This document shows, piece by piece, positions 2,395 to 62,394 of a DNA stretch of 64,000 bases (position 1 is its first letter; the number at the start of each line of letters is the position of its first letter). The notes beneath the pieces are model-generated. The model was not told where the DNA came from and made no database searches. It saw only the letters and a list, made by a program, of their open reading frames with translations. The position numbers and the translations under genes were made by a program. Source of the DNA: Bugula neritina (Eukaryota > Bryozoa > Gymnolaemata > Cheilostomatida > Bugulidae); assembly GCA_964035545.1 (NCBI GenBank), contig OZ037766.1, positions 30,172,274 through 30,236,273 of the forward strand, in the 5' to 3' direction.

Positions 2395-3661
2395 TACTAG
2401 ATTTTAAATGAAAATGGAACAGGCATTAATGACACAGGTAAAAATGGCACACAGATGTTAAACTTTTCCAAACCCCAAACCTTTATCCCAAACTCAAATC
2501 CCCATTCTAAACCATCAAATTTTCATATGGAAAGTGCGTCATTTTTATCTGCTTTTTCATATGTGTTATCTTAATACCTGTGTCACTTTACCAATTAAAC
2601 ACTATGTTACTAGCATCAGTGTACTTTAAATCGTGATTCAATATTCATTAGGCTATTTGAAAAAACTATAGCCAAAGTTAAAGTAAAGTTGTTTTTAAAA
2701 TAACAAAATAAGTTTTGATACTGATGACCAAACTTTTTTTTCTCCGAATATTTAGATAGTAAATTTTAAAATTTCAAAGATTATTTACTGCTTTTCATTG
2801 TTATGGCCCAAATTTGATTGTTTTCTTTCAGATTGTCAAGACTGCTTACGTACTCGTAGTCAAGCATGTCTTCGCCGTCTAGAAAATAGTAGGAGAGGTA
2901 AAAGTAGTAGAAAAGCCAGAAGAAAAGGCAGAAAAAGTATAAAAAAAGGAAGTAGAAGTAGTAGAAAGAAAGGGGGCAAATCTGCAAGGAGAAATAGCAG
3001 AAGACAACAAAAGAGAGATGACAGAAGAGCTAGAAGAAGAGGTCTTGGGAACAGAGCTCAACTCTGCAATGTAGCAGCAGGACAGCTCTGTGTTACTTTT
3101 TGCCAGCCGCCAACCTCAGCAACTACACCATTTCCAATTACTCCAGCACCAATCACCCCAGCACCATTCACACCACCTCCATTTATACTATACCTGTCAT
3201 TACACCAGCACTCATTACACCAGCTCCTATTACACCAGCTCCTGTCACTGCTGCACCACCAACTCCCGAACCAACCTCCACAACAACCTCTGCACTAACC
3301 CTAGCACCAACCCCTTCACCAACCCCCGCACCAACCCAAGCCCCAACTCCAGCACCAACCACCACAACAACCACCACAACAACCACCACAACAACCACCA
3401 CAACAACCACCACAACAACCACCACAACAACCACCACAACAACCCCCACAACAACCGCTGCACCTGGTCCAAAGGGAAAAAGATGATAATAAAAAATGTG
3501 TTTGAAACCGTAGCATCTGTGCAGTTGGCTGCATGTACTAAATTATTTTGACCGTTTGATTTCTTTTTTGTTTTGCAAATTAACATGTTTTTTGTGAAAC
3601 TATGATGATTTGGAAAATTTTGATGTCTATACTGAATTTGCATTTGTAGCTATCAAATAAA
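2395..3661 (+). pseudogene. secreted Cys/basic/Thr-Pro protein family, copy 1 (exon 2 only, frameshifted)
   Basis: Intron DNA at 2,395-2,831 matches the intron of the 50 kb copy. Exon 2 starts after CTTTCAG at 2,832 and reads CQDCLRTRSQACLRRLE, then a long Lys/Arg/Ser-rich stretch, then a QLCNVAAGQLCVTFCQPP block and Pro/Ala/Thr repeats. A TA dinucleotide present only in this copy (about 3,191-3,192, compared with the 19 kb copy) shifts the frame. The downstream frame then continues as a long Thr tract and ends in the family-type tail GPKGKR, with a stop at 3,484-3,486. A polyadenylation signal AATAAA lies at 3,656-3,661. Exon 1 with the signal peptide is absent, because repeat DNA takes its place. 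Only these two defects are visible, so inactivation looks recent. A chimeric 5' exon outside the homology cannot be fully excluded. Confidence 0.8.
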
Positions 3662-5527: not shown

Positions 5528-7770
5528 CTAAATGTTATAAAATATAAATAGGTTTCTGAAAATTGTGAATTCAGTCTGCTCATTCTTTTCCTCAAAACAT
5601 ATACTTAAAACTTCAAGGTCACGTTCTTTACAGTAAGATAGTGACCACCTACAAAGCACCAGAATACACACTAGAAACAAAAAACATACAATGTAAATGT
5701 ATATAAGCTGTGGTGAACTGAAGTGGTGTTTCAGAATAAGCTGTGAAAATGGGTGGGCAACTTCAAATTTCTGTATATTCCCCTATAAATATGACAAACA
5801 ATTTGATATATTCCTAAATGGGTAGGCAACTTTGAGCTTATGTACATTTCACTATAAAAATGACAAACAAGGGTGCAGATCATAAATGGGTGACAACTTC
5901 AAGTTTATGCAAATTCTGCAATAAAGATGGCAAACAAGACAGCTTTGATAGTGGGTGGGCAACTTCAATTTTAACTAGATTTTACTATAAAAGTGACTAA
6001 CAAGAAAGTTGAAATATGGGTGGGCAACTTCAACTTTATAAAAATTTTGCCATAAAGATGACAAACAATAAAATTAGGAAATAGGTGGGCAACTTCAATT
6101 TTATGTACATTTCACTATCAAGATGGCATACAAGAAAGTTAGAAAATTGGTGGGCAACTTCAATTTTATGTACATTTCACTATCAAGATGGCATACAAGA
6201 CTGTTCAGAGGTTGGTGGGTACTTTATATTCAATGTAAATTTTATTTTTGAAATGACAAACAATTTGACACGTTTATAAATGGGTGGGCAACTTCAATGT
6301 TGTGTACATTCAGTTATAAAAATGACCAACAAGAGTGTTCGGAATTTGGTGTACAAACTAGACTTTATGTAAATTTTACTATAAAGGAGATAAACAAGAA
6401 ATTTAGAACATAGTGTAATGGATTTTCATCCCCTATCGTTTTGAAAAATTCTAGTTGCTATCACTGAAAAATACCCTGCCTTTTGTTCTCTCTCACAAAG
6501 TTACTACAATAGGTAGGCAACTTCACGCTATAAAGATGATTAACAATAATATCTGATCATAAGTGGGTGACCTCAACTTTATACACACTGCTCTATAAAA
6601 ATGACAAACAAATAAAAACTTGTGAAAATAGGTGGGCAATTTCTAATTCATGTACATTTTACTATAAAAATAACTAACAAGGAAATGGAAAAATGGGTAG
6701 GCAACTTTCAGTTAAATTCCAATAAATTACTTAAAACTGCGAAATATTGCACTTTTCAAATAATTATTGATATAATGTAGATTTTGACTTAACTTCGTAC
6801 ATAACACCATTAGTGCATAGCTTATATGTTTGCATTTAAACAAAATTTTAAACTTTTTAAAAAAATTGATAACTATTATAATGCAAAATTTAAATTAATA
6901 AAATATGTTTCTTTCCAACATTACAAGCTTCAAATAATCAGAATTGGGCTCACCAACCTATCAATAAGTTCACATAGTGGCACCTGTGCATTTACTCATA
7001 TACAGTGTGTAAATTACAGATAACTTCATTGGTATGACTATAAATTTACCTGAATAGCCAAGTACATGGGAATAGCTAAACTTCTATCATTCAATACAAG
7101 CAAGGTATAGATAGATTCTTCTTGACGCAGAGCCTGGATGTTTCTCATATCAAGTAACCACAGATGTGAAAATGGCCTAAGGGAAATAAGAAAATATACA
7201 CAGACTAAACTAATAATTGAAATAGGCTATAACAAACTATTTTCTGACAAAAAAGGAATATTTTGTAAAAAGCTAGAATGGTAAGGGTAACGGGAAGGGG
7301 GAGCACAGCGGTCATATAAAGGGTACAAAAAGCTGGCCAAGTTGTAAGAGAATTTATTTACTTAGAGTTGGGATTTTTTTGTAAAAAGGTATTGACATAA
7401 TTATTTAACCATTGTAGATTCAACACTTGCAGAACATACATGTTGAAAAGGCGAGTCAAAAACTGTATTTATACAGCTACTTTTTGTAAATCTTTTAAGA
7501 TGTCGTTAAAGCTTAATAACTTTTTACACTCAAAGGTAACAATAAAAACCTATAAAGTTTACTGATGTTGTTGCCATTGCTTGTCTCTACATTGTTTAAC
7601 TAGTATAACAGCAAACTCTAAAATAGATTTCCCTTGAGCCACATTTATTTTCAAATTGGCCACACGGAGCACAGTGGCCAAGCTGATTATTGCACCCTGA
7701 TCACTGTTATTAGTTTGTTTGCCAAAAATTTTAGTTGAAACGTTAATGAAATTTATAGATATAGCCATTT
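5528..7770 (-). pseudogene. 3' exons of an unrecognised gene, copy A (frameshifted last exon)
   Basis: I do not recognise this protein. Three minus-strand pieces fit together. An exon ending at 7,563 (open from at least 7,768) encodes ILEFAVILVKQCRDKQWQQH and has donor CA|GTAAAC. A 127-nt exon at 7,050-7,176 (CTTAG|G ... CAG|GTAAAT) encodes PFSHLWLLDM, RNIQALRQEE, SIYTLLVLND and RSLAIPMYLAIQ. The phases match, CA|G giving Gln. The terminal exon at 5,528-5,670 has a strong TTTGTTTCTAG acceptor. Compared with copy B it lacks one base near 5,659-5,660, so phase 0 reading stops early, although the shifted frame still reads a conserved CFEEKNEQTEFT. A possible further upstream exon at about 7,800-7,890 (MAIEVLTSPDVYIRG) could splice into the frame at GAIISLATVL. 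The 1-kb minisatellite lies in the last intron. The gene could be functional with an alternative 3' end. Confidence 0.55.
5745..6715. repeat. degenerate minisatellite, unit 60-70 bp, about 14 units
   Basis: Repeats of the form GGGTGGGCAACTTCAATTTT, ATGTACATTTCACTATAAA, ATGACAAACAAG. Unit starts fall near 5,752, 5,820, 5,886, 5,952, 6,018, 6,083, 6,148, 6,212 and 6,281, with further units to 6,715. Units are diverged, and a unique insert near 6,410-6,500 interrupts the array. It lies within the last intron of the minus-strand gene. Open frames here are chance. Confidence 0.9.
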
Positions 7771-8403: not shown

Positions 8404-9632
8404 GGAATATTTTGCTATTCATACATGATTGGTTAAGTATACAATTGTAGACGATATCACAATATGTTGAAATTATATAAAACTAACTAACAATCTACCA
8501 ACATTCAAGTGAAATATTTTATCTGTTATATCATATGTGTATATATACAGTCAAGGGAGACTGACATAATACACTGAGCTTCAACTACCACTTTGCTTTT
8601 GCGACAGTCACTTAATACAAGACAGTGCATTGAAGCTAATGAATCTGGATTAGTGTAGGACAGATAATAACAGTTAATCTCGTTATTTATGTTATAGGGA
8701 TGGCTGAGGCTGAAATAATAGTAAATTATTTATAACGCAAGCTCTGAAATCAATCATGGACAGTGGGTGGCAGCCAAGAACAGCAACTATCTCGTAAAGA
8801 TTTTTTGAAATGCCAATTTTGACTATTTAAATGTTTTAAATGACAAAATTGGGCTTTGCTTTTAGAAAGATTGTGCTTTTTGACAAACCTTGAGATATCA
8901 TTTGCTCTGCTAATTATACGTTTAACATATGAGGAGAGGGGCATGCACCCTATAAAACATTCACAATTATATGTGTGTAACTGCAGAATTAATGTAAATT
9001 TCTGGTGTCATCAAACAGATATTCTACATTTTAGTGTAGCACAGCATGTCTTCTGGCCCTAATTAAATTTAACCAGAAAAAAGCAAATTCAAAATGTTTT
9101 TGGACCTGCCTAATTAGATAAAACGTTATATGCTAAACCGTTCTCAACAGTCACTTTATTGAAATAAAAACTTTTTCAATGAATCATTAACCCCTACCCC
9201 TACTTCAAGGTACCCTGGAAAAGATGGTAAAATATATCCAACAATATATTTCAGCCATTATAATAACACTAATATACATACTCCAACTCTATATCCTAGC
9301 AGAGATGCATATAAAATATGTTGAGATTTTATACTGTGCAAGTCTACTATATATTAATTCACTTCATATAGAGTAGAGTAGAATAGAGAAGAGAAGGGTA
9401 GAGTAGAGCAGGGCAGGGCAGGGCAGGGCACGGCAGGGCAGGGCAGGGCAGGGCAGGGCAGGGCAGGGCAGGGCAGGGCAGGGCAGGGCAGGGCAGGGCA
9501 GGGCAGGGCAGGGCAGGGCAGGGCAGGGCAGGGCAGGGCAGGGCAGGGCAGGGTAGGGTAGGGAAGGGAAGGGAAGGGTAGGGTAGGGTAGGGTAGAGTA
9601 GAGTAGAGAGGAGTAGAGTAGGGTAGAGTAGG
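8404..9632. repeat. left arm of a large inverted repeat (right arm 13,545-14,919)
   Basis: The sequence reappears reverse-complemented at 13,545-14,919, from ATTTTGCTATTCATAC at the outer edge to the pentamer array at the inner edge. Shared landmarks are GTGGGTGGCAGCCAA, GAGGGGCATG and ACCCCTACCCC. A third, direct copy of its inner part lies at 23,990-24,455. It has no coding content. Together the arms flank the intact secreted-family gene. Confidence 0.9.
9369..9632. repeat. GGGCA/GGGTA pentanucleotide array 2
   Basis: TAGAG units at the edges and about 28 GGGCA units in the middle, then GGGAA and GGGTA variants. The opposite arm holds a CCCCG/CCCTG/CCCTA version at 13,545-13,918. Pro-Ala-Leu-Pro-Cys open frames are artefacts. 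Confidence 0.95.
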
Positions 9633-9775
9633 GTCATGGTAACGGTTGATAACGGTTGGTAACGGTTGGTTATATAATAAGAAATGTTGGTCTGATATAT
9701 TATAACAGTAAAGATGAAATACAACCCGTGAGTCTCTAGGGCCTAGCAATTTACTCAACTGGCAATATTGTCACT
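9633..9775. repeat. shared block after pentamer arrays
   Basis: GGTAACGGTTGG repeats followed by AACAGTAAAGATGAAAT and TCTAGGGCCTAGCAATT. The same block is at 17,690-17,890, where a 66-bp inverted-repeat element interrupts it, and in shortened form at 2,240-2,285. Confidence 0.75.
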
Positions 9776-10052: not shown

Positions 10053-11201
10053 ATGAGAACTTGGATCTTGATAGCATTTGTATTGAGTGTAGCAGTGGTG
10101 TTTGTCTCTTCACAAAACCAAGCAGACTTTTCCTCTGCAGTATCTCTGTGTAAGTAATTTAATTCTTTATGATTATATGTTATTTTTGTAAATTTTGTTA
10201 TTAGATTGCAGTAAAGTGATAGTCAAGTGATTGGGCAAATTTTTAAACTTTTTCAGACAAAAGAAATTGGAAAAAAGAATTATCTGAATGTCTTAATTGA
10301 AGCTAATTGTTTTGACTTTTCTAGCATTAGGAAATATGTCTGCTACTTTGTATACTGTTGATAAAAATATAGCAAATTAAATTTTGATACCTATTACGTA
10401 ACTGCATTTTATAGAGGTCAAAAGGAAATTATACTTTACGTCATTTCTATGGCCAAATTTTGATTTGTTATTTCAGCATGCCAAGCTTGTTTACGTTCTC
10501 GTACTCAAGCATGCCTTCAGCGCTTAGGAGTAGGTAGAGGAGGCAGGGGTGGTAAAGGGAAAAAGAGAAAAAATAAAAGAGGAGACAGGAGAGGCAATAG
10601 AAGAGCGGGCAAGAGCAAGAGAGGCAATAAAAAAGGGGGCAAAAGAAGTAAAAGAAAAGGGGGCAAGAGAAGTAAAAGAAAAGGGGGTAAAGATGGAAAG
10701 AGATCAGCTCGAATTTGCAATATAGAAGCCCAGCGACTCTGTATTAGCTTTTGTCAGCCACCAGCCCCAGCACCTACACAACCACCAATCACACCAGCTC
10801 CAATTCGTGCAGCACGAATTACACCAGCACCAATTATGATACAACTTATTACACAAGCACCTATTAGACCAGCACCAATAACACCACCACCAATTACTGC
10901 TGCACCAACCACTGCTGCACCAACTACTACTACACAAGCCATCGTCGCACGATTCGCTGGCGCAATCATCTTCGCACCAGCACCCACTACAACAACAACC
11001 ACTACAACAACAACACCCACTACAACAACAACACCCACTACAACAACAACACCCACTACAACAACAACACCCACTACAACAACAACACCCACTACAACAA
11101 CAACACCCACTACAACAACAACACCCACTACAACAACAACACCCACTACAACAACAACACCCACTACAACAACAACTTCAACGCCAGATAAAAGAAAATA
11201 A
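10053..11201 (+). CDS. secreted Cys/basic/Thr-Pro repeat protein, intact family member
   Basis: The family is not one I recognise. Exon 1 is 10,053-10,149 and exon 2 is 10,477-11,201, with donor T|GTAAGT, acceptor TTTCAG|CA and a phase 1 junction giving Ser. The product is 273 aa. Residues 1-20 (MRTWILIAFVLSVAVVFVSS) form a typical signal peptide. C-x2-C-x7-C follows at about residues 34-45 (CQACLRSRTQAC). About 65 residues are dominated by Lys, Arg and Gly (KGGKRSKRKGG repeated). A second Cys cluster, CNIEAQRLCISFC, has spacing C-x7-C-x3-C. The rest is mucin-like: Pro-Ala-Pro-Ile-Thr repeats, a short hydrophobic VARFAGAIIFAPAP, then about ten TTTTTP hexads and a basic end (STPDKRK). Thr-rich tails of this kind are usually O-glycosylated, so a mucous, adhesive or matrix role is plausible but inferred. 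It is the only copy here with both exons open. Confidence 0.85.
10980..11172 (+). repeat. 18-bp coding minisatellite (TTTTTP hexads)
   Basis: Tandem 18-base units (CCCACTACAACAACAACA) encode Pro-Thr5. Variation in their number would change protein length in steps of six residues without a frameshift. Other family copies use different repeats at the same place: 9-bp ACCACAACA in copy 1 and 12-bp Pro-Thr-Pro-Ala units in the 50 kb copy. Confidence 0.9.
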
Positions 11202-11663: not shown

Positions 11664-11944
11664 TTAGATTAGAGAAGAATAAGGTAGAAAAGAGTAGAGT
11701 AGAGTAGAGTAGAGTAGAGTAGAGTAGGGTAGGGTAGGGTAGGGTAAGGTAGGGTAAGGTAGGGTAGGGTAGGGTAGGGTAGGGTAGGGTAGGGTAGGGT
11801 AGGGTAGGGTAGGGTAGGGTAGGGTAGGGTAGGGTAGGGTAGGGTAGGGTAGGGTAGGGTAGGGTAGGGTAGGGTAGGGTAGGGTAGGGTAGGGTAGAGT
11901 AGGGGAGGGTAGGGTAGGGTAGGGTAGGGTAGGGGAGGGTAGAG
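11664..11944. repeat. TAGGG/TAGAG pentanucleotide array 3
   Basis: About 55 units, mostly TAGGG in the centre and TAGAG at the edges. It is followed by the shared block AATAAATAACAAT. Confidence 0.95.
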
Positions 11945-12028
11945 TATAACTTAAGGTAATAAATAACAATTGTTCTAATCATGTTTTGTAGTTATGAGTG
12001 AGAAAATTTGTGCTGTGAGGCCCTACAC
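11945..12028. repeat. block B, left part (interrupted by a LINE)
   Basis: TAATAAATAACAATTGTTCT to GTGAGGCCCTACACCT also appears at 17,100-17,187 and 24,470-24,553. Here a non-LTR retrotransposon follows immediately after CCCTACACCT, and block B resumes at about 13,325. Confidence 0.8.
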
Positions 12029-13540: not shown

Positions 13541-13544
13541 GCTA

Positions 13545-14919
13545 CCCTACTCTACCATACCCTACTCTACCATACCCTATTCTACTCTTCCCTATTCTAC
13601 TCTTCCCTACTCTACTCCACTCTACTCTGCTCTGCCCTGCCTTGCCCCGCCCCGCCCCGCCCCGCCCCGCCCCGCCCCGCCCCGCCCCGCCCCGCCCCGC
13701 CCCGCCCCGCCCCGCCCTGCCCCGCCCCGCCCTGCCCTGCCCTGCCCTACCCTACCCTACTCTACTCTACCCTACCCTACTCTACCCTACTCTACTCTAC
13801 CCTACTCTACTCTACTCTACTCTTCTCTACCCTACTCTACCCTACTCTACTCTACTCTACTCTACTCTACTCTATCCTACCCTTCTCTTCTCTACCCTTC
13901 TCTTCTCTATTCTACTTTATTCTATATGAAGTGAATTAATATATAGTAGACTTGCACAGTATAAAATCTTAACATATTTTGTATGCATCTCTGCTAGGAT
14001 ATAGAGTTGGAGTACGTATATTAGTGTTATTATAATGGCTGAAATATATTGTTGGATACATTATACCATCTTTTCCAGGATACCATGAAATAGGGGTAGG
14101 GGTTAATGATTCATTGAAAAATTTTATATTTCAATAAACTGACTGCATGTTGAGAACGGCTCAGCAAATAAATTTTTTTTTATTATAGGCAGGTCCAAAA
14201 AACATCTTGAACACGTTTTTTTCTGGTTAAATTTAATTAGGGTCAGAAGACATGCTGTTTTACACTAAAATGTAGAATATCTGTATGATGACGAATTTAC
14301 ATTAATTCTGCGCAGCTACACACATATAATTGTGAATGCTTTATATAGGTTACATGCCCCTTTCCTCATATGTTAAACTTATTAGCAGAGCAAATGATAT
14401 TTTAAGGTTTGTCAAAAAGCACAATCTTTCTAAAAGCAAAGCCCAATTTTGTCATTTAAAACTTTTAAATAGTCAAAATTTGCGTTTCAAAAGAATTTTA
14501 CAAAGTTTGCTGTTTTTGGCTGCCACCCACTGGCCATGCATGATTTATTTCAGAGCTTGCATAAATAATTTACCATTATTTCAGCCTCAGACATTCCTAT
14601 AACATAAATAACTGTAAGCGCATGCTTTAGATGATTAACTGTTATTATCTGTCCTCCACTAATCCAGATTCATTAGCTTCAATGCAAAGTCTTGTATTAA
14701 GTGCATGACTGTCGCAAAAGCAAAATGGTAATTGAAGCTCAGTATATTATGATATTATGTCAGTCTCCCTTGACTGTGCATGTACACACATATATATAGT
14801 AGATAAAATATTTTACTTCAATCTTGGTAGATTGTTAGTAAGTTTTATATAATTTCAACTTGTAATATATTCTACAATTGTATACCTAACCAATTATGTA
14901 TGAATAGCAAATTATTCTC
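13545..14919. repeat. right arm of the large inverted repeat
   Basis: Reverse complement of 8,404-9,632. The outer edge stops exactly where the AAGTTGCG inverted-repeat element begins at 14,920. The inner edge is a pentamer array at 13,545-13,918 (CCCCG, CCCTG and CCCTA units). The open frame at 14,336-14,602 lies inside this repeat and is not credible as a gene. Confidence 0.9.
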
Positions 14920-15894: not shown

Positions 15895-16005
15895 TGGTGG
15901 TTCTGTTCATAGTAAGATACTGACTACTAATTTTCATCTTATACTTGCTTGCTATAATAAATAACTATAAATAGCTATAATAGCTATAAACAGTAGCTAG
16001 CTAGT
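15895..16005. repeat. inverted flank of pentamer array 4 (partner 17,395-17,525)
   Basis: TTCTGTTCATAGTAAGATAC to TATAAACAGTAGCTAGCT is the reverse complement of about 17,405-17,510. The 1.1 kb pentamer array and block B therefore sit inside an inverted repeat. Confidence 0.75.
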
Positions 16006-17092
16006 AAAGTAGAGAAGAGTAGGGTAGAGCAGAGTAGGGTAGGGTAGAGTAGAGTAGAGTAGAGTAGAGTAGGGTAGGGTAGGGTAGAGTAGGGTAGGGT
16101 AGGGTAGAATAGGGAAGAATATATTATAGTAGGGTAGGGTAGAGTAAAGTGGGGTAGGGTGGAGTAGGGTAGGGTAAGGAAGAGTAGAGTAGAGTAGGGA
16201 AGAGTAGAGTAGAGTATAGAGTAGAGGTGGGTAGGGTAGGGTAGGGTAGGGTAGGGTAGGGTAGAGTAGGGTAGAGTAGAGTAGAGTAGAGTAGGGAAGG
16301 GTAGAGTAGGGTAGGGTAGAGTAGAGTAGAGCGGAGTAGGGTAGAGTAGAGTAGAGTAGAGTGGGGTAGGGTAGATCAGGGTAGGGTACTAGAGAAAAGT
16401 ACAGTAGAGTAGAGTAGGGAAGAGTACAGTAGAGTAGGGTAGGGAAGAGTACAGTAGAGTAGAGTAGGGAAGAGTAGAGTATAGAGTAGAGGTGGGTAGG
16501 GTAGAGTAGGGTAGGGTAGGGTAGGGTAGAGTAGGGTAGAGTATGGAGTAGAGTAGAGTAGAAAAAAGTAGAGTAGCGTAGGGTAGAGTAGAGCGGAGTA
16601 GAGTAGGGTAGAGTAGAGTAGAGTAGAGTGGGGTAGGGTAGAGTAGGGTAGAGAAGAGTAGAGTAGAGTAGAGTAGGGAAGAGTAGAGTAGAGTAGAGTG
16701 GGGTAGGGTAGAGTAGGGTAGGGTAGGGTAGAGTAGGGTAGAGTATGGAGTAGAGCAGAGTAGAGATGAGTAGAGTAGGGTAGGGTAGAATAGGGTAGAG
16801 TAGAGTAGAGTAGGGTAGTGTAGAGTAGGGTAGTGTAGGGTATGGTAGAGTAGAGCGGAGTAGAGTAGGGTAGAGTTGAGTAGCGTAGAGTGGGGTAGGG
16901 TAGAGTAGGGTAGGGTAGAGAAGAGTACAGTAGAGTAGAGTAGGGAAGAGTAGAGTAGAGTGTAGAGTAGAGGTGGGTAGGGTAGAGTAGGGTAGGGTAG
17001 GGTAGAGTAGGGTAGAGTAGGGTAGAGTATGGAGTAGAGTAGAGTAGAGAAGAGTAGAGTAGCGTAGGGTAGTGTAGGGTAGGGTAGAGTGT
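16006..17092. repeat. TAGAG/TAGGG pentanucleotide array 4 (1.1 kb)
   Basis: A mixed array with higher-order structure. Longer units, from about 150 to about 300 bases and containing GTAGAGGTGGGTAGGG and GAGTAGAGCGGAGTAG, recur several times. It holds the longest open frame in the first 20 kb (376 codons of Leu-Tyr-Pro-Thr on the minus strand). That frame is produced purely by the stop-free 5-mer and is not a gene. Confidence 0.95.
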
Positions 17093-17929: not shown

Positions 17930-19150
17930 GCATAGACATTATAAATGATCAGAATAATTTGGCTGTATTTTTAATTTGTTTTAAGTAACAGTTATTTTTT
18001 ATTATTATTTTTATAAAGAGTAATCTTTTATGGTTAACACCAGCATGCTATTAGATTGGCAATGAGCAGCTAGTTAACTGACAATTGTATTATCAAGCAG
18101 AATTACTATAGATATTATAGTTTTCATGTTCGAAGAGCTGATACTCTTCAAGCAACTTTCTGGATAAGATGGGAACGTCAAACAAAAAATTATAGCTTGT
18201 TTTTTTAATAGTGTGTCATAGCTGCTGGTCATTACTTCATTTCTCATATTTTGTTATAATTACTTTAGGCTACTATACCATGCAACAGCTGAAGTCATAA
18301 AGTTATTCAAATTTTGTATAGTTTCAATAACTTTATATATAGCCTACTGCCAATTGAATTTTTTGCTATTCTCATTATAATGAAACTTTATCAATAACAA
18401 AAATTTTATTTTTCATTTGCCAGAATGATAATCGAGTTAGTTTACTTCATTTAGTACACACCGGCAACTTATGACCTATCATTAAAGTTTGCTCAAAATC
18501 AATCGAAATTTACTATACACGCTATTTTTATGTGCTGGTATTAACTATACGCAAAACAGAAAAGGCTGGAAGGGGATTCCCCAAAATTAAAGCCAGGTCA
18601 TTGTCATGTGCGCTTAATATTCTATATGTGCTAACCGTTACGAAAAAAAAACCGTAAAGGTCCGTAACCAAAACTAGCTGAATAATTAGGAAAAAACATC
18701 GGAAATAAAGCAAAATTAAAAAGAACTTTGATTATTTAGGTGTATTTTTTGGTGTTTTACTAGTTTTGGCTAAAAGACCATGTTCAAATTACCAGCTAAA
18801 TTGTGAAAAAATAGCAAAAAACTGAAGTTATCCAGTGTGTACTAAATTAGGTAAAATGACCCAATCACATATCTATAGTCTCTTGATGTTGACTTAAATT
18901 ACATAAAAATAGTTTATTGGGACAAAGAAGAGATTAGATTCTTTTAATCTTGGATTAGCCAGAGGTTTGGGCCCTGCAGTTGACAATAAGTATTATATAT
19001 TGTCTAAGATCTACGTATTTAAATATATTATTTTATGGCATTTAATAAATATTACCAACAGAATTATAACGGTTCAGCAAGTAAATCCAACAAAATAAAA
19101 CCACGATTTTTAGCTTTAGTTTATCTGAAATAATTTTAGTTGAAAACATC
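17930..19150. repeat. duplicated block (partner 24,660-25,480), no gene
   Basis: AT-rich DNA shared with 24,660-25,480, for example ATTATCAAGCAG, AGAATGATAAT and GAGTTATAACGGTT-type segments. The match ends where the secreted-family relic begins at about 19,170. Short minus-strand frames such as 18,528-18,713 have no support. Confidence 0.6.
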
Positions 19151-19170
19151 AGCTATGCCTTCATAGAAAA

Positions 19171-19733
19171 GTTAAAAGAGAAATTAGAAATAGTAAAGGG
19201 GGCATATCTGGGAGGAGAAGTAGCAGAAGGCAACAAAATAGAGATGACAGAAGAGCTAGAAGAATTGAGGTCTTGGGAACAGAATTTAAATCTGCAATAT
19301 AGAAGCAGGAAAACTTTCTGCTATTTTTTGCCAGCCGCCAACCTCAGCACCTACACCATGTTCAATCACCTCAGCATCAATCACTGCAGCACCATTCACA
19401 CCATCGCCATTTATGCTACCTTTCATTACAATAGCACTCATTACACCACCACCAATTACATCAGCTCCCGCTTACACCAGCCCCTACAGCACTGCAGCTC
19501 CAGTTACGACTGCACCAAAAACTACTGCAACAGCAACTGCTGAACCAACTCTAGCGCACCAAATAAAAAAATGCATTTGAAAGCGTGGCATCTGTGCGGT
19601 GGGCTGTATTGAATTTCTTCGATCAGTTGATGGTTTTCATACTATGCAAATTAACATGTTACTTTGTAAAACTATAATTATTTAGAAAGTTTTAATGTCA
19701 ATACTAATTTTGTAGTTTTAGCTATGAAATAAA
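19171..19733 (+). pseudogene. secreted Cys/basic/Thr-Pro family relic, copy at 19 kb
   Basis: The 5' part (exon 1 and the first Cys cluster) is missing. The basic region survives only as a fragment near 19,200-19,260. Just after it, in the family frame, comes a TAA (about 19,288). From there the frame reads CNIEAGKLSAIFCQPP and a Pro/Thr tail of about 80 codons to a TGA at 19,578-19,580. The second Cys of the cluster is Ser, and the long Thr repeat is absent. AATAAA at 19,728-19,733 is kept. It is clearly decayed. Confidence 0.8.
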
Positions 19734-20140: not shown

Positions 20141-23156
<3,016 letters not shown>

Positions 23157-23268
23157 AAACATCTAACTAAATTGCTCTTTTCTTCAATAATATAATTGCT
23201 CATTATTATACACATAATAATTTGAGCACTTTTACATCTGCTGTTTTTTAAAAAACTTGCGCCACGAC

Positions 23269-23271
<3 letters not shown>

Positions 23272-23327
<56 letters not shown>
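23272..23327. repeat. (TA)n microsatellite
   Basis: Pure TA units directly outside the left arm of the inverted repeat at 23,331. Confidence 0.95.
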
Positions 23328-23800
<473 letters not shown>

Positions 23801-23847
23801 AAACTATAAGTTTTACTATTGCGAAGGTGTGGGCCATGGTACTCTGT

Positions 23848-23894
23848 TCTGTGCTGATGAGGGGACAAATCCTGAAACAGCTGCTGTCCACAGA
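23848..23894 (+). ncRNA. hammerhead ribozyme, complete core, GUC cleavage site
   Basis: Stem I pairs TCTGTG (23,848-23,853) with CACAGA (23,889-23,894). CTGATGA is at 23,854-23,860. Stem II is GGGG/TCCT with loop ACAAA and G-U pairs at both ends. GAAAC is at 23,874-23,878. Stem III is ACAG/CTGT with loop CTG. The cleavage triplet is GTC, with the cut after 23,888. Every invariant core base is present, and all three helices close in a type I arrangement. It is unrelated in sequence to the Penelope ribozyme 700 bases upstream and is not next to a reverse transcriptase, which suits a non-autonomous retrozyme-type element. Activity is inferred. Confidence 0.87.
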
Positions 23895-23899
23895 TTAAG

Positions 23900-23900
<1 letters not shown>

Positions 23901-23989
<89 letters not shown>
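23901..23989. repeat. (TA)n microsatellite
   Basis: TA units between the hammerhead and the next repeat block. Confidence 0.95.
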
Positions 23990-23992
<3 letters not shown>

Positions 23993-24660
23993 TGAGGAGA
24001 GGGGCATACAATTCTACTAAGCATTCGCAATTACATGTGCAACTGCAGAATTAATGCAACTTTCTGGTGTCATCATAAAGTTATTCCACATTTCAGTGTA
24101 AAACAGCATATTATGTTTTGTGGTCCTAATTAAATTTAGACAGAAATAACAAAAAGCAATAGTTCTTAGCTTTTCTACAATGAAATGTTTTTTAACTTGC
24201 CCAATAAAATAAAACTTCATCTGCTAAAGTGTTTTTATAGCAGTCACTCTATTGAAATATTGCATGAAATAATGTTTCAATAAAACATAACTGATAAAAA
24301 AAGACTTATACTTCAAAGTACCCTGAAAAGGATGGTATATAATCCAAAACTTTATTGCAGCCATTAAAATAACACTGATGTACGTACTCCATACCCTAAT
24401 AGAGATGCACATAAAAGGCTGAGACATTATAATGTACAAGCATACTATATATAAATTCACCTAATGTATTTAAAGTAATAAATAACAATTAATCTACTGA
24501 TGTTATATTAAAACTACAGCTGTGAGTATGAAAATTTATGCTATGAGGCAATACACCTAACAGTTATAGACCATTTTGTAATTTTACTATAGGTTATATA
24601 ACTATATATAGCACTAATATATATCCTAGTAGTACAACACGACTTGTGTAAATATTATAA
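23990..24660. repeat. third copy of the 9 kb arm joined directly to block B (array-free)
   Basis: GAGGAGAGGGGCATAC to ATATATAAATTCACCT matches 8,930-9,365. It runs at about 24,455-24,470 straight into AATAAATAACAATTAATCT of block B. In other copies a TAGGG array lies at this junction. This is effectively the array-free site. Confidence 0.75.
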
Positions 24661-25480
24661 ATGCACAGATTAATTCTGTTACATTTTGCATTTGCTTTCA
24701 GTAAACGAACTTTATTTTTTATTTAACTTTATAAAGATTGATCATACGTGCAACACACACATGCTATTAGCATTTTTAAGCAATGAACAGCTTATATAGT
24801 AAACTGACAATTGTATTATCAAGCAGTTACTATAATAGTTATAATGTTAAAGTTTTCATATATTTGAAAAGTTATTAAATGTACAAGTTTACGTACTTTT
24901 CAAGTAACTGCATGTATATATAAAAACTGCCTGATATGAAAAGAGTTTTAAAATAAATAACTTTAGGCTAATGATATATACTCAAGGTTAAAATGAAAAA
25001 TATATCTAAATTTTAAATTGTCAATAACATTTAGCTACAAGGGCTATATTATGTACTTATAATGCTTAAAGGTATGAAGTTTATTGTATAATCGTTAAAC
25101 TCAATCCTAATCAATAACAGCAATTTTAATATTTATTTGCCAGAATGATAATTATTTTTCTGCAGTCTCTTATTTACCTAAAAGATATAAAAATATAGTT
25201 AATTATTAGGAGATTAGGTTTTTTAATCTGTGATTAACCAAGAGTGTGGGGTATGCAGTTGACATTAAGTGATACATAATATTATCTACCTACATGATTC
25301 CATTTGTTATGAGAAATGTATTAGTTTAAGGTTTCTAATAGATATTACCGACAGAGTTATAACGGTTTATTAAGTAAATCCAATGAAATAGAACCAGTCT
25401 CTTATACTACGCACTTTTTAATTACATAAGCTTATCTTAAATGATTTTAACTGAAAACAACCAGTATATCTATTATCCTA
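24661..25480. repeat. duplicated block (partner 17,930-19,150)
   Basis: Matches 17,930-19,150 in order. No coding sequence. The copies diverge at about 25,480, just where the 19 kb gene relic begins in the other copy. Confidence 0.55.

Positions 25481-27204: not shown

Positions 27205-27281
<77 letters not shown>
27205..27281. repeat. (TA)n microsatellite
   Basis: About 38 TA units. Confidence 0.95.
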
Positions 27282-27285
<4 letters not shown>

Positions 27286-45125: not shown

Positions 45126-46876
45126 TCATCTAAAATTGAGGTCCAACTGAATGTTACAGATTAGGCTTCTGAAGACTGTGAATTCAGTCTGCTCATTCTT
45201 TTCCTCAAAATATATATTTAAAGCTTCAAAGTCTTGCTGCTCTTTACAGTAAGATGGTGACCACCTACAAAGCAACAAGAATACTGACTAGAAACAAAAA
45301 ACATTCAATGTAAATGTATATATAAACTGTGGTAAAATGAAGTCGTGCTTAAGAATGTGTTGTGAAAATGGATGGACAAATTCAAATTTTTGTATATTTT
45401 TCTATAAAGATGACAAAAAATTTGATATATTCCTAAATGGGTAAGCAACTTCGACCTTATGTGCATTTCACTATAAAATGACAAACAAGGGTGATCAGAA
45501 ATAGGTGACAACTTCAAGTTTATGTAAGTTTTGCTATAAAGATCGCAAACAAGACAGTTCTTAAAATGGGCGGGCAACCTCAATTTTACCTAGATTTTAT
45601 TATGAAAATGACTAACGAGAAATTGTTGGAAACTGGGTGGACAACTTCAATTTTATGTACATTTCACCATAAAATAATATGACAAACAAGAAGGTTGGTA
45701 ATTGATTGGCCAACTTCAATTGTATTTACATTTCACTATAAACAACTAGCAAAAAAGTTAAATGGGGGGCAACTTCAATTTCATGTACATTTTACTATTC
45801 ATATGGCAAATAAGGGTGTTCAGAAATTGGTGGACAACCGCAATTTTATGTATATTTCACTATAAAGATGGCAAGCAAGAGTGTTTAAATATTAGTGGGT
45901 AGCTTCAATTTAATGTACAATTCACTATAAACATGACTAGCAACAATGTTTTTAATATGGGTGAGCAACTTTAACTTTATGTATATTTCACTATCATGAT
46001 GGCAAACAAGACTGTTCAGATATTGGTCAGTATTTTTAATTATTTTACATTTCACTATAAATATAAAAAAGATTGTTCAGAGATTGTGGGTACCTTCAAT
46101 TTAATATAAATTTTGTGTACATTTAACTATAAAAATGACTAACAATAGTGTTTGGAATTGGGTGTGCTAGTTTTACTAAAAAGATGACTAACAAAACAGT
46201 TGGAACATAGGTAGGCAACTTCACCTACATTTTGCTATAATGATTATTAACAATAATGTCTGATCATAGGTGGGCGACCTCACCTTCATACATACTGTTC
46301 TATAAAGATGACTAATAATTGGAAACTTGTGAAAATAGGTGGGCAACTTCTAATTCATGCACATTTTACTATAAAAATGACCAACAAGAAAATTGGGAAA
46401 TGGGTAAGCAACTTCCAGTTCAATTCCAATAACCTACTTTAAACTGCTAAATATTACACTTTTCAAACAATTATTGATATAATGACCTAACTTTGGATAT
46501 AATATTATCAGTGCATAACTTATTTATTTTTATTTATAAACTGAAACTTTAGACTTTTTGAAAAGTTTGGTCAATATTATAAGGCAAGAGGTGATGTATT
46601 AAATACTCCTTTCAAACATTACAAGCTTCAAATAATCAGAGTTGTGCTCACCAAACTATCAATAAGTTCACATAGTGGCACAGCTGTGCATTCCTTCATA
46701 TACAGTGTGTAAATTACAGATAACTTCATTGGTATGACCATAAATTCACCTGAATAGCCAAGTACAGGGAAATAGCTAAACTCCTAACATTCAATGTAAG
46801 CAAGGTATAGATAGGTTCTTCTTGATGCACAGCCTGGGTAATTTTCTTATCAAGTAATCACAGGTGTGAGAATGGC
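45126..46876 (-). pseudogene. 3' exons of an unrecognised gene, copy B (damaged penultimate exon)
   Basis: The terminal exon 45,126-45,287 (162 nt, acceptor TTTGTTTCTAG) is fully open in phase 0. It reads SVFLLLCRWSPSYCKEQQDF, EALNIYFEEKNEQTEFTVFR and SLICNIQLDLNFR, then TGA. The penultimate exon (46,750-46,875) shows two defects: the acceptor TTAG|G has become TGAG, costing the phase base, and TGG has become TGA after FSHL. Substitutions between the copies in the terminal exon are mostly conservative, as if that exon was under selection after duplication. The minisatellite lies between the two exons. A third, more decayed penultimate exon is at about 49,232-49,365. Confidence 0.65.
45360..46425. 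repeat. degenerate minisatellite, unit 60-70 bp, about 16 units
   Basis: The same unit as at 5,745-6,715 (GGTGGGCAACTTCAATTTTATG ... ACAAACAAG type; shared pieces GGGTGGACAACTTCAATTTT, CATTTCACTATAAA). Copy number and unit order differ from copy A, so the arrays evolved separately after duplication. Stray units recur at about 48,495-48,530 and 48,735-48,830. Confidence 0.9.
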
Positions 46877-49477: not shown

Positions 49478-51294
49478 GTGACTTTGCAAAGGGATATAAC
49501 ACTTGTTGTGAGCGTAGGAGTTGTGTTTGTATCTTCACAAAATTAACTGAGCTTTTCATCTGGACTATCTCTATGTAAGTTTTAAAAATACTATTTTCCA
49601 GACAAAGGCAATCACAAAAACTAAGTCCCTATTTTTTTGCTAATCTTTATAAAGTCTGTAATACGATTGTTGCAATTAATACCATCATATATAGCAGCTA
49701 CATTTGGTGAAGACTGTTTAATTTTTTATCTGCAAAACAAGTTCGAAAACCAAATAATTGTATAAGGCTAATAATTTTACTCAAGCTGATTTTTGTCATC
49801 TTAGTTACTGGATTGTAATTGAAAATAGCACAGACAACATTGACACAGGTACAAATAGCACACTGATGTTATACCTTCCCAAACCCAAAGTTCAAACTCT
49901 TATCCCGAACTCAAACCCTCATTACCAACCCAAAATTCTTCATTTAGAAAATATGTCTTTATTATCTGTTTTTCCATTTATACCTGCGTTATTTTACAGA
50001 ACACCATGTTACTAGCATCAGTGTAGTTTCTATGATTTGATATTCATTTGGCTTTTTGTAAAAACTAGTCAAAATGACAATTATTTTTAAAATATTAACA
50101 ACCTGCATTGTGATAGTGATGATCACACTTCATTTTTTCTCTAAATATTTAAATAAAAACTTTTCAAGGTTCATAAACTATTTACTACTTTTCATTGTTA
50201 TATTGCCCGAATTCAATTGTTTTTTTAGCTTGCCAAGACTGCTTACGTACTCGTACTCAAGCATGTCTTCGTCGTTTAGAAACTAGGAAGGGAGGCAAAA
50301 CTGGTAGAGCAGTTAGAGGAAGAGACAAAAAGAGAGAGAAAACAAAAAGCAGAACAAAAAAGGTGGAAAGAAAAAAGGCAAAAAAAAGAGAAAAACAAAA
50401 GGGCAAAAAAGTTGGAAGAAAAGGAAGCAGAAGTAGTGGGAAAAAAGGGAGCAGATTGCAGATAAGAGAAAAAGTAGGAAAAGTAGCAAAAAGCAACAAA
50501 GAACTAGAAAAACTAAAAGAAGTCTTGGAAACAGAGCTCAACTCTGCAATGCAGAGGCTCAACAACTCTGTGCTATTTTTTGTCAGCCACTAACCACGGC
50601 AGCAACGCCATTTTAAATCATCCCAGCACCAATCCCGCTCCAGCACCATTTACATCACTATCATTTTTAATACCTTTGATTACAATAGCACCCAGTACAT
50701 CAGCACCAATTGCACGAGCTCCCCTCATACGAGCTACTACTACACCAACACCAACAACCACTGCTGCACCAATCATTATTGGACAAGGTTTTGCTGGAGC
50801 AATTTTTGCTGGACCCGCACCAACTCCCGCGCCAACCCCAGCACCAACTCCCGCGCCAACCCCTGCACCAACCCCCGCACCAACCCCCGCACCAACCCCG
50901 CACCAACCCCCGCACCAACCCCTGCACCAACCCCCGCACCAACCCCCGCACCAACCCCCCACCAACCCCTGCACCAACCCCCGCACCAACCCCCGCACCA
51001 ACCCCCGCACCAACTCCCGCACCAACCCCCGCACCAACCTCCGCACCAACCCCCGCACCAACCCCCGCACCAACCCCCGCACCAACCCCCGCATACCAAT
51101 TCCTGCGCCGGGAAAAAGAAGATAAACAAAACTATTATTAAAAGCAGTAATCCTTGCATGAGCAGCTGGGTGTATTTCAGTTTTTTTCTTTTGATAGTTT
51201 TTACAATTGATAAACAATATTTTTTTGCAAAACTTTGTCGAGTTAACAAGTTTTAGTGCTAATACTGAATTTGTATCTGTACCTAACAAATAAA
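49478..51294 (+). pseudogene. secreted Cys/basic/Thr-Pro family relic, copy at 50 kb (both exons)
   Basis: Exon 1 (49,478-49,574) has the same 97-nt length as the intact gene, but its start codon is GTG and a TAA follows SVGVVFVSSQN. Exon 2 starts at 50,229 after TTTTTTAG (CQDCLRTRTQACLRRLE). The basic region is long and Lys-rich. The frame then slips before the second Cys cluster, which survives out of frame as CNAEAQQLCAIFCQP. A TAA follows near 50,615. Further on, [17 protein letters not shown] matches the hydrophobic spacer of the intact copy. A Pro-Thr-Pro-Ala repeat slips frame at least twice (HQPP, then TNPR). The end, [10 protein letters not shown], resembles the intact tail. AATAAA lies at 51,289-51,294. 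Multiple defects make it a clear pseudogene. Confidence 0.88.

Positions 51295-59825: not shown

Positions 59826-59879
<54 letters not shown>

Positions 59880-62250: not shown

Positions 62251-62394
<144 letters not shown>

Follow-up and report, generated by a model that had tools for sequence, protein, structure and literature searches.

Animal non-LTR retrozymes, as described by Cervera & de la Pena (2020), carry a type I hammerhead ribozyme in units of ~150-450 bp and form circles (PMC7229834). The class is further marked by dimers and larger tandem arrays, a GC content below 50%, strongly self-paired circular RNA, PLEs in the same genome, the lack of an LTR, primer-binding site and polypurine tract, and target-site duplications that, where present, exceed 4 bp. 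Their mobilisation has been proposed to proceed through a primed circle copied by the enzyme of a Penelope-like element (PLE) or a LINE (PMC7229834), and PLEs appear as candidate movers also in PMC7761336. The available portion of PMC7229834 names neither a start site nor a target repeat for these elements, and the strings 'microsatellite' and 'truncat' are absent from its main text. The LTR retrozymes of plants have a type III hammerhead, circles of 600-800 nt, PBS/PPT and 4-bp target duplications (PMC7229834). Among PLEs themselves, PAc from Anolis cuts AT-rich DNA and starts inside its RNA at a site non-homologous to the target (Frangieh et al. 2024; PMC11167929), and the Terminons/Athena PLEs of bdelloid rotifers are reported, in a review, to join overhangs of telomeric repeats, apparently with the aid of complementary RNA repeats beside a hammerhead (PMC12477314). 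In literature searches covering papers available without subscription, retrozymes together with microsatellites returned a plant retrozyme study and a guide to transposable element curation; retrozymes together with target-primed reverse transcription returned one paper that, by title, concerns non-autonomous LTR retrotransposons. Penelope combined with dinucleotide repeats and target-primed reverse transcription returned nothing, Penelope combined with TA repeats or microsatellite insertion only a passage on Dong LINEs (PMC3636483), and bryozoa combined with hammerhead ribozymes nothing. As far as this literature goes, the ribozyme and retrozyme family described here have not been reported from the phylum Bryozoa.

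The window, by which we mean the whole 64,000-nucleotide stretch analysed, corresponds to C2:30172274-30236273 of the 215.8-Mb genome of the marine bryozoan Bugula neritina. A preliminary description had singled out in it a hammerhead motif at 23848-23894, which is of type I with a complete core and stems I, II and III of 6, 4 and 4 bp as read from the sequence. Stem I pairs TCTGTG (23848-23853) with CACAGA (23889-23894), the core comprises CTGATGA (23854-23860) and GAA (23874-23876), stem II pairs GGGG (23861-23864) with TCCT (23870-23873) around the loop ACAAA, and stem III pairs ACAG with CTGT around a loop of 3 nt. In stem II the window copy has a T where most copies have C, so that its first pair is G-U. 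All bases of the three helices, the invariant core and the 6-bp stem I that had been described within 47 bases are present, and the cleavage position given there, after 23,888, coincides with C17 of the ribozyme, 3' of which cutting is predicted.

A descriptor requiring CUGANGA, GAAA and NUH, with at least 5 bp in stem I and at least 3 bp in stems II and III, gave two matches in the 64-kb window, both on the plus strand (23848-23894 and 23106-23156), and none in 100 dinucleotide shuffles searched on both strands. Covariance models, which had been suggested as a check, did not recognise the motif: neither the window nor any of 15 further loci gave an Rfam match at the gathering score, nor did Hammerhead_1 (RF00163) reach its gathering cut-off of 34 bits in a genome search that scored 73 of 15744 first-look candidates, the sole match at E <= 10 having 25.4 bits and lying beside a PLE match. 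On a copy of the common type (L002) the best hammerhead model was RAGATH-1-hammerhead, whose 15.2 bits remain below its cut-off of 56.3. In E-value mode no hammerhead model matched the region 22800-25000, where most matches were due to the AT tracts. In view of the clear descriptor scan and genome copies, we do not regard this result as disproving the motif. Folded alone by a simple method without tertiary contacts, the common-type motif reaches -11.5 kcal/mol in the native fold against a minimum of -14.9 kcal/mol, a partly different pairing being preferred. Judged from its sequence, we regard the motif as a genuine ribozyme with a predicted cleavage site.

The suggestion that the motif marks a retrozyme family is supported by the genome, in which a 271-bp unit is present in hundreds of copies, both dispersed and in tandem. 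A 35-base pattern of the hammerhead core, with up to 3 mismatches, occurred 267 + 269 = 536 times, so that further genomic copies clearly exist, and the reversed pattern used as a control occurred 0 + 0 times. The unit length was taken from the spacing of adjacent copies, which are found as single, 5'-truncated and tandem forms; circle positions are numbered from the first base 3' of the cleavage site. Of the first 100 zero-mismatch places listed, 92 are represented in the 80 loci that we retrieved; 6 of the remaining places belong to C5, one to L003 and one to the window itself. After removal of overlapping BLAST matches and with at least 25 non-AT bases required, 89 arrays remained in these loci, the shortest of 0.18 and the longest of 3.07 units; 11 of them contain at least 2 hammerhead cores. 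Across the 60 arrays that reach 150 nt, identity with the reference unit has a median of 98.1%, which suggests that the sampled copies are young. Successive turns within an array differ less than arrays do among themselves in 8 of 10 arrays, and more in 2. Five natural units from tandem arrays (270-271 nt), folded as circles, gave -88.8 to -99.6 kcal/mol with z-scores of -5.7 to -7.3; these are weaker than the z-scores of five 267-nt units trimmed by ATAT (-8.2 to -10.0) but still strong. The GC content of both sets is 0.43-0.44, below 50%, and the exact hammerhead fold is absent from the minimum free energy structure of the circle. A tRNA scan found none, and no exact copy of a 27-base core was found in viral contigs. 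We class the 271-bp element as a non-LTR animal retrozyme; it has no reverse transcriptase of its own.

Table 1. Features of the locus in the order in which they lie in the window
Feature	Position	Strand	Basis or remark
(AT)133 microsatellite, 5' edge of PLE remnant	21398..21663	.	repeat scan
5'-truncated reverse-transcriptase piece of PLE remnant (199 aa), adjoining AT tract	21665..22261	+	ORF; weak Pfam RVT_1; YRDDG by eye
PLE remnant, GIY-YIG endonuclease piece, 177 aa, frame differs from reverse-transcriptase piece	22254..22784	+	
PLE 3' non-coding region, ends CTATT before (TA)n	22788..23271	+	41 genome matches
Hammerhead of PLE, second in the window; core CTGAGGA..GAAAC, 8-bp stem I, cut predicted 3' of A23148	23106..23156	+	descriptor scan
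(AT)28 between PLE and retrozyme copy 1	23273..23328	.	
Retrozyme copy 1, circle positions 6-191, hammerhead end missing	23322..23507	-	
Interrupted (AT)83 between retrozyme copies	23506..23671	.	
5'-truncated retrozyme copy 2, spanning circle positions 53-271 and continuing to 15	23670..23903	+	97.9% identical to L008 unit
Type I hammerhead ribozyme of retrozyme copy 2	23848..23894	+	predicted cleavage after C23888
Proposed start site of reverse transcription (ATAT) at circle positions 12-15	23900..23903	+	
(AT)41 at 3' edge of retrozyme copy 2	23908..23989	.	TRF row 23900-23989

The layout of the locus (Table 1) accounts for the 130-bp inverted repeat to which the ribozyme had been linked as an arrangement not known from described retrozymes. 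The repeat exists, with 130 of its 133 common bp identical; it is not a special architecture, being formed by two opposite copies of one element, copy 1 (-) and copy 2 (+), around an AT tract. Since AT repeats are identical on both strands, insertion in either direction is expected, and opposite retrozyme pairs less than 1 kb apart were found also in L049, L051, L074, L079 and L085, and same-direction pairs in L018 and L045. The ribozyme had moreover been placed outside any reverse-transcriptase element, which is true for the 47 bases themselves; the same chain of AT repeats nevertheless contains, at 21665-23271, a PLE remnant with its own hammerhead that ends 0.6 kb upstream. The whole block of PLE and two retrozymes (21398-23989) is duplicated ~57.4 kb away on chromosome 2 (L108, C2:30137500-30139200), and in the duplicate copy 1 is complete, with its hammerhead and a normal 3' end; the window copy 1 has thus probably lost its hammerhead end by a later deletion. 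Priming at a second AU site, considered in view of the end of copy 1 at position 191 of the circle (CTATA), was dropped on the same ground; L037 may be a similar case. As copy 2 has a single hammerhead, its transcript would be cut once and no circle would be released from it alone; this copy is a truncated insertion product and not a source.

Elsewhere in the window, four similar-looking open frames on the plus strand (2756-3486, 10464-11201, 19085-19543 and 50177-51125) show by eye a basic stretch and long Pro/Thr-rich repeats, and perhaps represent a local mucin-like protein family. Two arrays 40 kb apart (5745-6408 and 45364-46113) have nearly the same 65-bp unit, which suggests a duplication within the window, and long pentanucleotide arrays GTAGG/CTACC occur in both strand senses at 2070-2242, 9408-9634, 11665-11946, 13542-13924 and 16003-17090.

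The ends of the sampled arrays are markedly asymmetric. The 3' end falls at circle position 13-15 in 84 of the 89 arrays (GAG-ATAT, followed in most by AT repeats), and the 5' ends occupy 48 different positions, lying at positions 6-12, that is, at near-whole turns, in 24 arrays. The five arrays with odd 3' ends (positions 6, 27, 39, 191 and 195) were kept in all counts. As the 80 loci had been picked for a perfect hammerhead, 8 more loci of C1 were examined with a body probe and without a listed perfect hammerhead partner, and their 3' end is at position 15 in 7 and at 17 in one. Genome counts decrease away from the 3' end, from 536 (positions 237-271) to 383 (148-182) and 168 (17-51), a gradient that unequal divergence of the three probe stretches could have sharpened. 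In one subfamily GAGGTAT replaces GAGATAT (e.g. L107) and the end position is the same; the position beside the hammerhead thus seems to matter besides pairing. The constant 3' end, the variable 5' ends and the copy gradient point to target-primed reverse transcription from one site in the RNA.

The surroundings of these ends point to (AT)n as the target. A run of (AT)>=8 lies within 20 bp of 81/89 3' ends and 69/89 5' ends, being absent nearby at the other 20 5' ends, against a background of 37 in 4609 random places of the same loci. In the 66 arrays with AT repeats on both sides any target-site duplication is concealed. At truncated 5' junctions flush with AT the mean AT homology is 2.49 nt (n=39), compared to 0.71 at random break points (sd 0.14; 0 of 20000 simulations). 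Some of the 5' truncations may be later deletions on the AT side, since the comparison of the window copy 1 with its duplicate points to just such a deletion. It is quite improbable, in our judgement, that the flanking (AT)n was made by reverse transcriptase stuttering on AUAU and is no target at all: the uninterrupted AT tracts are indeed longer on the 3' side (median 40 bp) than on the 5' side (14 bp), as stuttering would have it, but AT is also found at most 5' ends and the window contains AT arrays free of any element (27205-27282, 59828-59877 and 62259-62390). The same flanks raise the question of whether the unit spreads as DNA, by recombination or conversion of AT tracts that carry it along in a satellite-type amplification. 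The AT tracts on both sides of so many arrays and the duplication of the window locus are in keeping with such a process; it predicts, however, equal variation at both ends, whereas the 3' ends coincide and the 5' ends vary, and the fall in copies away from the 3' end is likewise against it. Spread as DNA is already disfavoured by these data and we consider it very improbable. We take the family, its fixed 3' end, its variable 5' ends and its AT target as shown by the sequences, and the preferred reading remains target-primed reverse transcription into AT repeats.

Every one of the 84 arrays whose 3' end is standard continues unbroken across the cleavage site, and none of the 89 has circle position 1 as its start or 271 as its end. 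Monomers cut open at that site are accordingly not the template, which must have been either closed or uncut there. Products of a whole turn or of several turns are consistent with a circle, and also with an uncut linear multimeric transcript, for which the element and the AT target would be the same and the hammerhead dispensable. Besides the passage of the arrays through the cleavage site, the Anolis PLE favours this alternative, as mutation of its hammerhead leaves insertion in vitro normal and RNA that had not been processed was considered to be the main substrate (PMC11167929). Few loci, however, can give multimers, given how rarely arrays hold two or more cores, and the strong folding as closed circles, together with circles published from other animals (PMC7229834), favours a circular template. 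We therefore hold an uncut multimer to be rather unlikely and continue with the circle.

In the PLE remnant the GIY-YIG endonuclease is at the C-terminus and the hammerhead in the terminal region. Its reverse-transcriptase piece matched Pfam RVT_1 at E 0.0094 with 16.1 bits, below the cut-off of 29.6, the motif YRDDG being recognised by eye; no PDB sequence matched this piece, and Foldseek gave no match at E <= 0.001. A genome search with Pfam GIY-YIG found 1 match, so that this model misses most Bugula PLEs, for which the genome holds 605 candidates, 150 of them scored. Open frames are long in many copies, up to 715 aa, and the core pattern of the PLE hammerhead is present in 9/11 other copies among the matches listed, the two lacking it being L090 and L093. 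A run of (AT)>=8 lies within 30 bp of 13 of the 14 PLE 3' ends examined, a number in which L001 and L108 represent the same duplicated locus and which leaves out the pieces in L010, L012 and L083 and the second-family copy L099. These ends fall at two alternative places ~80 nt apart (window 23194 and 23271), both at AT-rich sequence; we thus regard the presence of PLEs at AT targets as equally established at the sequence level. Same-strand pairs ~2.6 kb apart (e.g. C3:12297087/12299689; C9:2732085/2734671/2737251) are tandem or partly tandem.

Two further observations concern PLEs elsewhere in the genome. A second family (L099, C9:2737200-2738700) has an endonuclease ~50% identical and a minimal hammerhead with the palindromic CTATATAG at stem III; its end sequence is ..CAGCATACATT before (AT)n, and a stray piece of it stands alone in an AT tract of L059. 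At C2:29948874-30030146 (G000) ten PLE endonuclease matches of equal score follow one another at intervals of ~9 kb, which probably reflect a tandemly repeated 9-kb unit with a piece of a PLE in it.

As the PLE ends use the same AT target, PLEs are likely to provide the machinery for the retrozyme. On C1-C4, 5 of 57 PLE loci lie within 5 kb of a retrozyme against 0.58 expected; the maximum in 5000 simulations was also 5, and 2 of the 5 loci are one duplicated locus. The enzyme might alternatively belong to a LINE or to another reverse transcriptase, PLEs merely sharing the preference for AT repeats: the proximity is a small-number signal, and Dong LINEs of the R2 group insert into microsatellites according to a passage of PMC3636483. 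The Bugula PLEs, on the other hand, combine hammerheads, AT-repeat ends and long open frames, and another enzyme appears to us somewhat improbable.

Thus, we propose, and consider highly probable, that the 271-nt non-LTR retrozyme is mobilised by target-primed reverse transcription at (AT)n with a circle as template, the enzyme most likely coming from a PLE. Tandem genomic copies would be transcribed and their hammerheads would cut the transcript into 271-nt monomers which are then closed into circles, steps that are known for animal retrozymes and that we infer for Bugula. The AT end of a microsatellite would pair with the AUAU that lies 12-15 nt past the closed junction of the cleavage site and so prime reverse transcription on the circle. 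Synthesis would proceed back through stem I, the hammerhead and the body and cover part of the circle, roughly the whole of it, or as many as three turns, the partial turns giving 5'-truncated copies and the extra turns tandem arrays, and the far end would be joined to AT repeats, often via short homology. The PLEs, with their own hammerheads and their integration at the same target, are the most likely source of the enzyme. The circle as template, the pairing of the target with AUAU and the PLE enzyme are the parts that we infer, and the non-homologous start of the Anolis element counts against the pairing.

More tentatively, we suggest as one possible extension that retrozyme circles and PLE RNAs share a single integration machine, in which the PLE protein may use the hammerhead for recognition and AT microsatellites may prime at AUAU past the closed junction; in that case only RNAs with a closed junction, namely circles, would have the start site beside an intact hammerhead. 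The Bugula family offers sequence evidence on mobilisation: the start site is fixed, some products span several turns, the target is defined and a PLE bearing hammerheads resides in the same genome. This integration signature makes the mobilisation of retrozymes testable in a compact system consisting of a 271-nt RNA, an (AT)n target and long open PLE frames. The novelty here lies in the fixed 3' junction 13-15 nt past the cleavage site, followed by (AT)n in most arrays, with 5' ends that vary.

Compared with described systems, the Bugula family resembles the animal non-LTR retrozymes in its type I hammerhead, one per unit, in a unit length within their range, in forming dimers to short arrays, and in its GC content, its strong predicted self-pairing as a circle and the PLEs in the same genome. 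It differs from them in the very regular (AT)n target, in the single 3' junction, in the excess of single and truncated copies over multi-unit arrays in our sample, and in its host phylum. With the hammerhead satellites of schistosomes and newts it shares short tandem units with a type I ribozyme (PMC7229834; PMC8490949), but these form long satellites, whereas the Bugula insertions are dispersed, often 5'-truncated and located in AT repeats. Plant LTR retrozymes are likewise non-autonomous retroelements bearing a hammerhead, with a circle intermediate (PMC4918200) such as we propose for Bugula; the type of the hammerhead and the 271-bp unit set the Bugula element apart. The Bugula PLE is like PAc of Anolis in its GIY-YIG endonuclease, its hammerhead, its tandem copies and its AT-rich target, and its two 3' ends recall the optional tail described for PLEs (PMC11167929); unlike in PAc, the start sites look AU-rich and match the target. 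The nearest precedent for the proposed priming is that of the Terminons, with their reported repeat-primed start beside a hammerhead, even though these are telomeric, giant and coding while the Bugula element is interspersed in (AT)n, 271 nt long and devoid of a reverse transcriptase. If the shared machine is real, it would extend the Terminon principle to microsatellite-specific target-primed reverse transcription of a retrozyme from a circular template.
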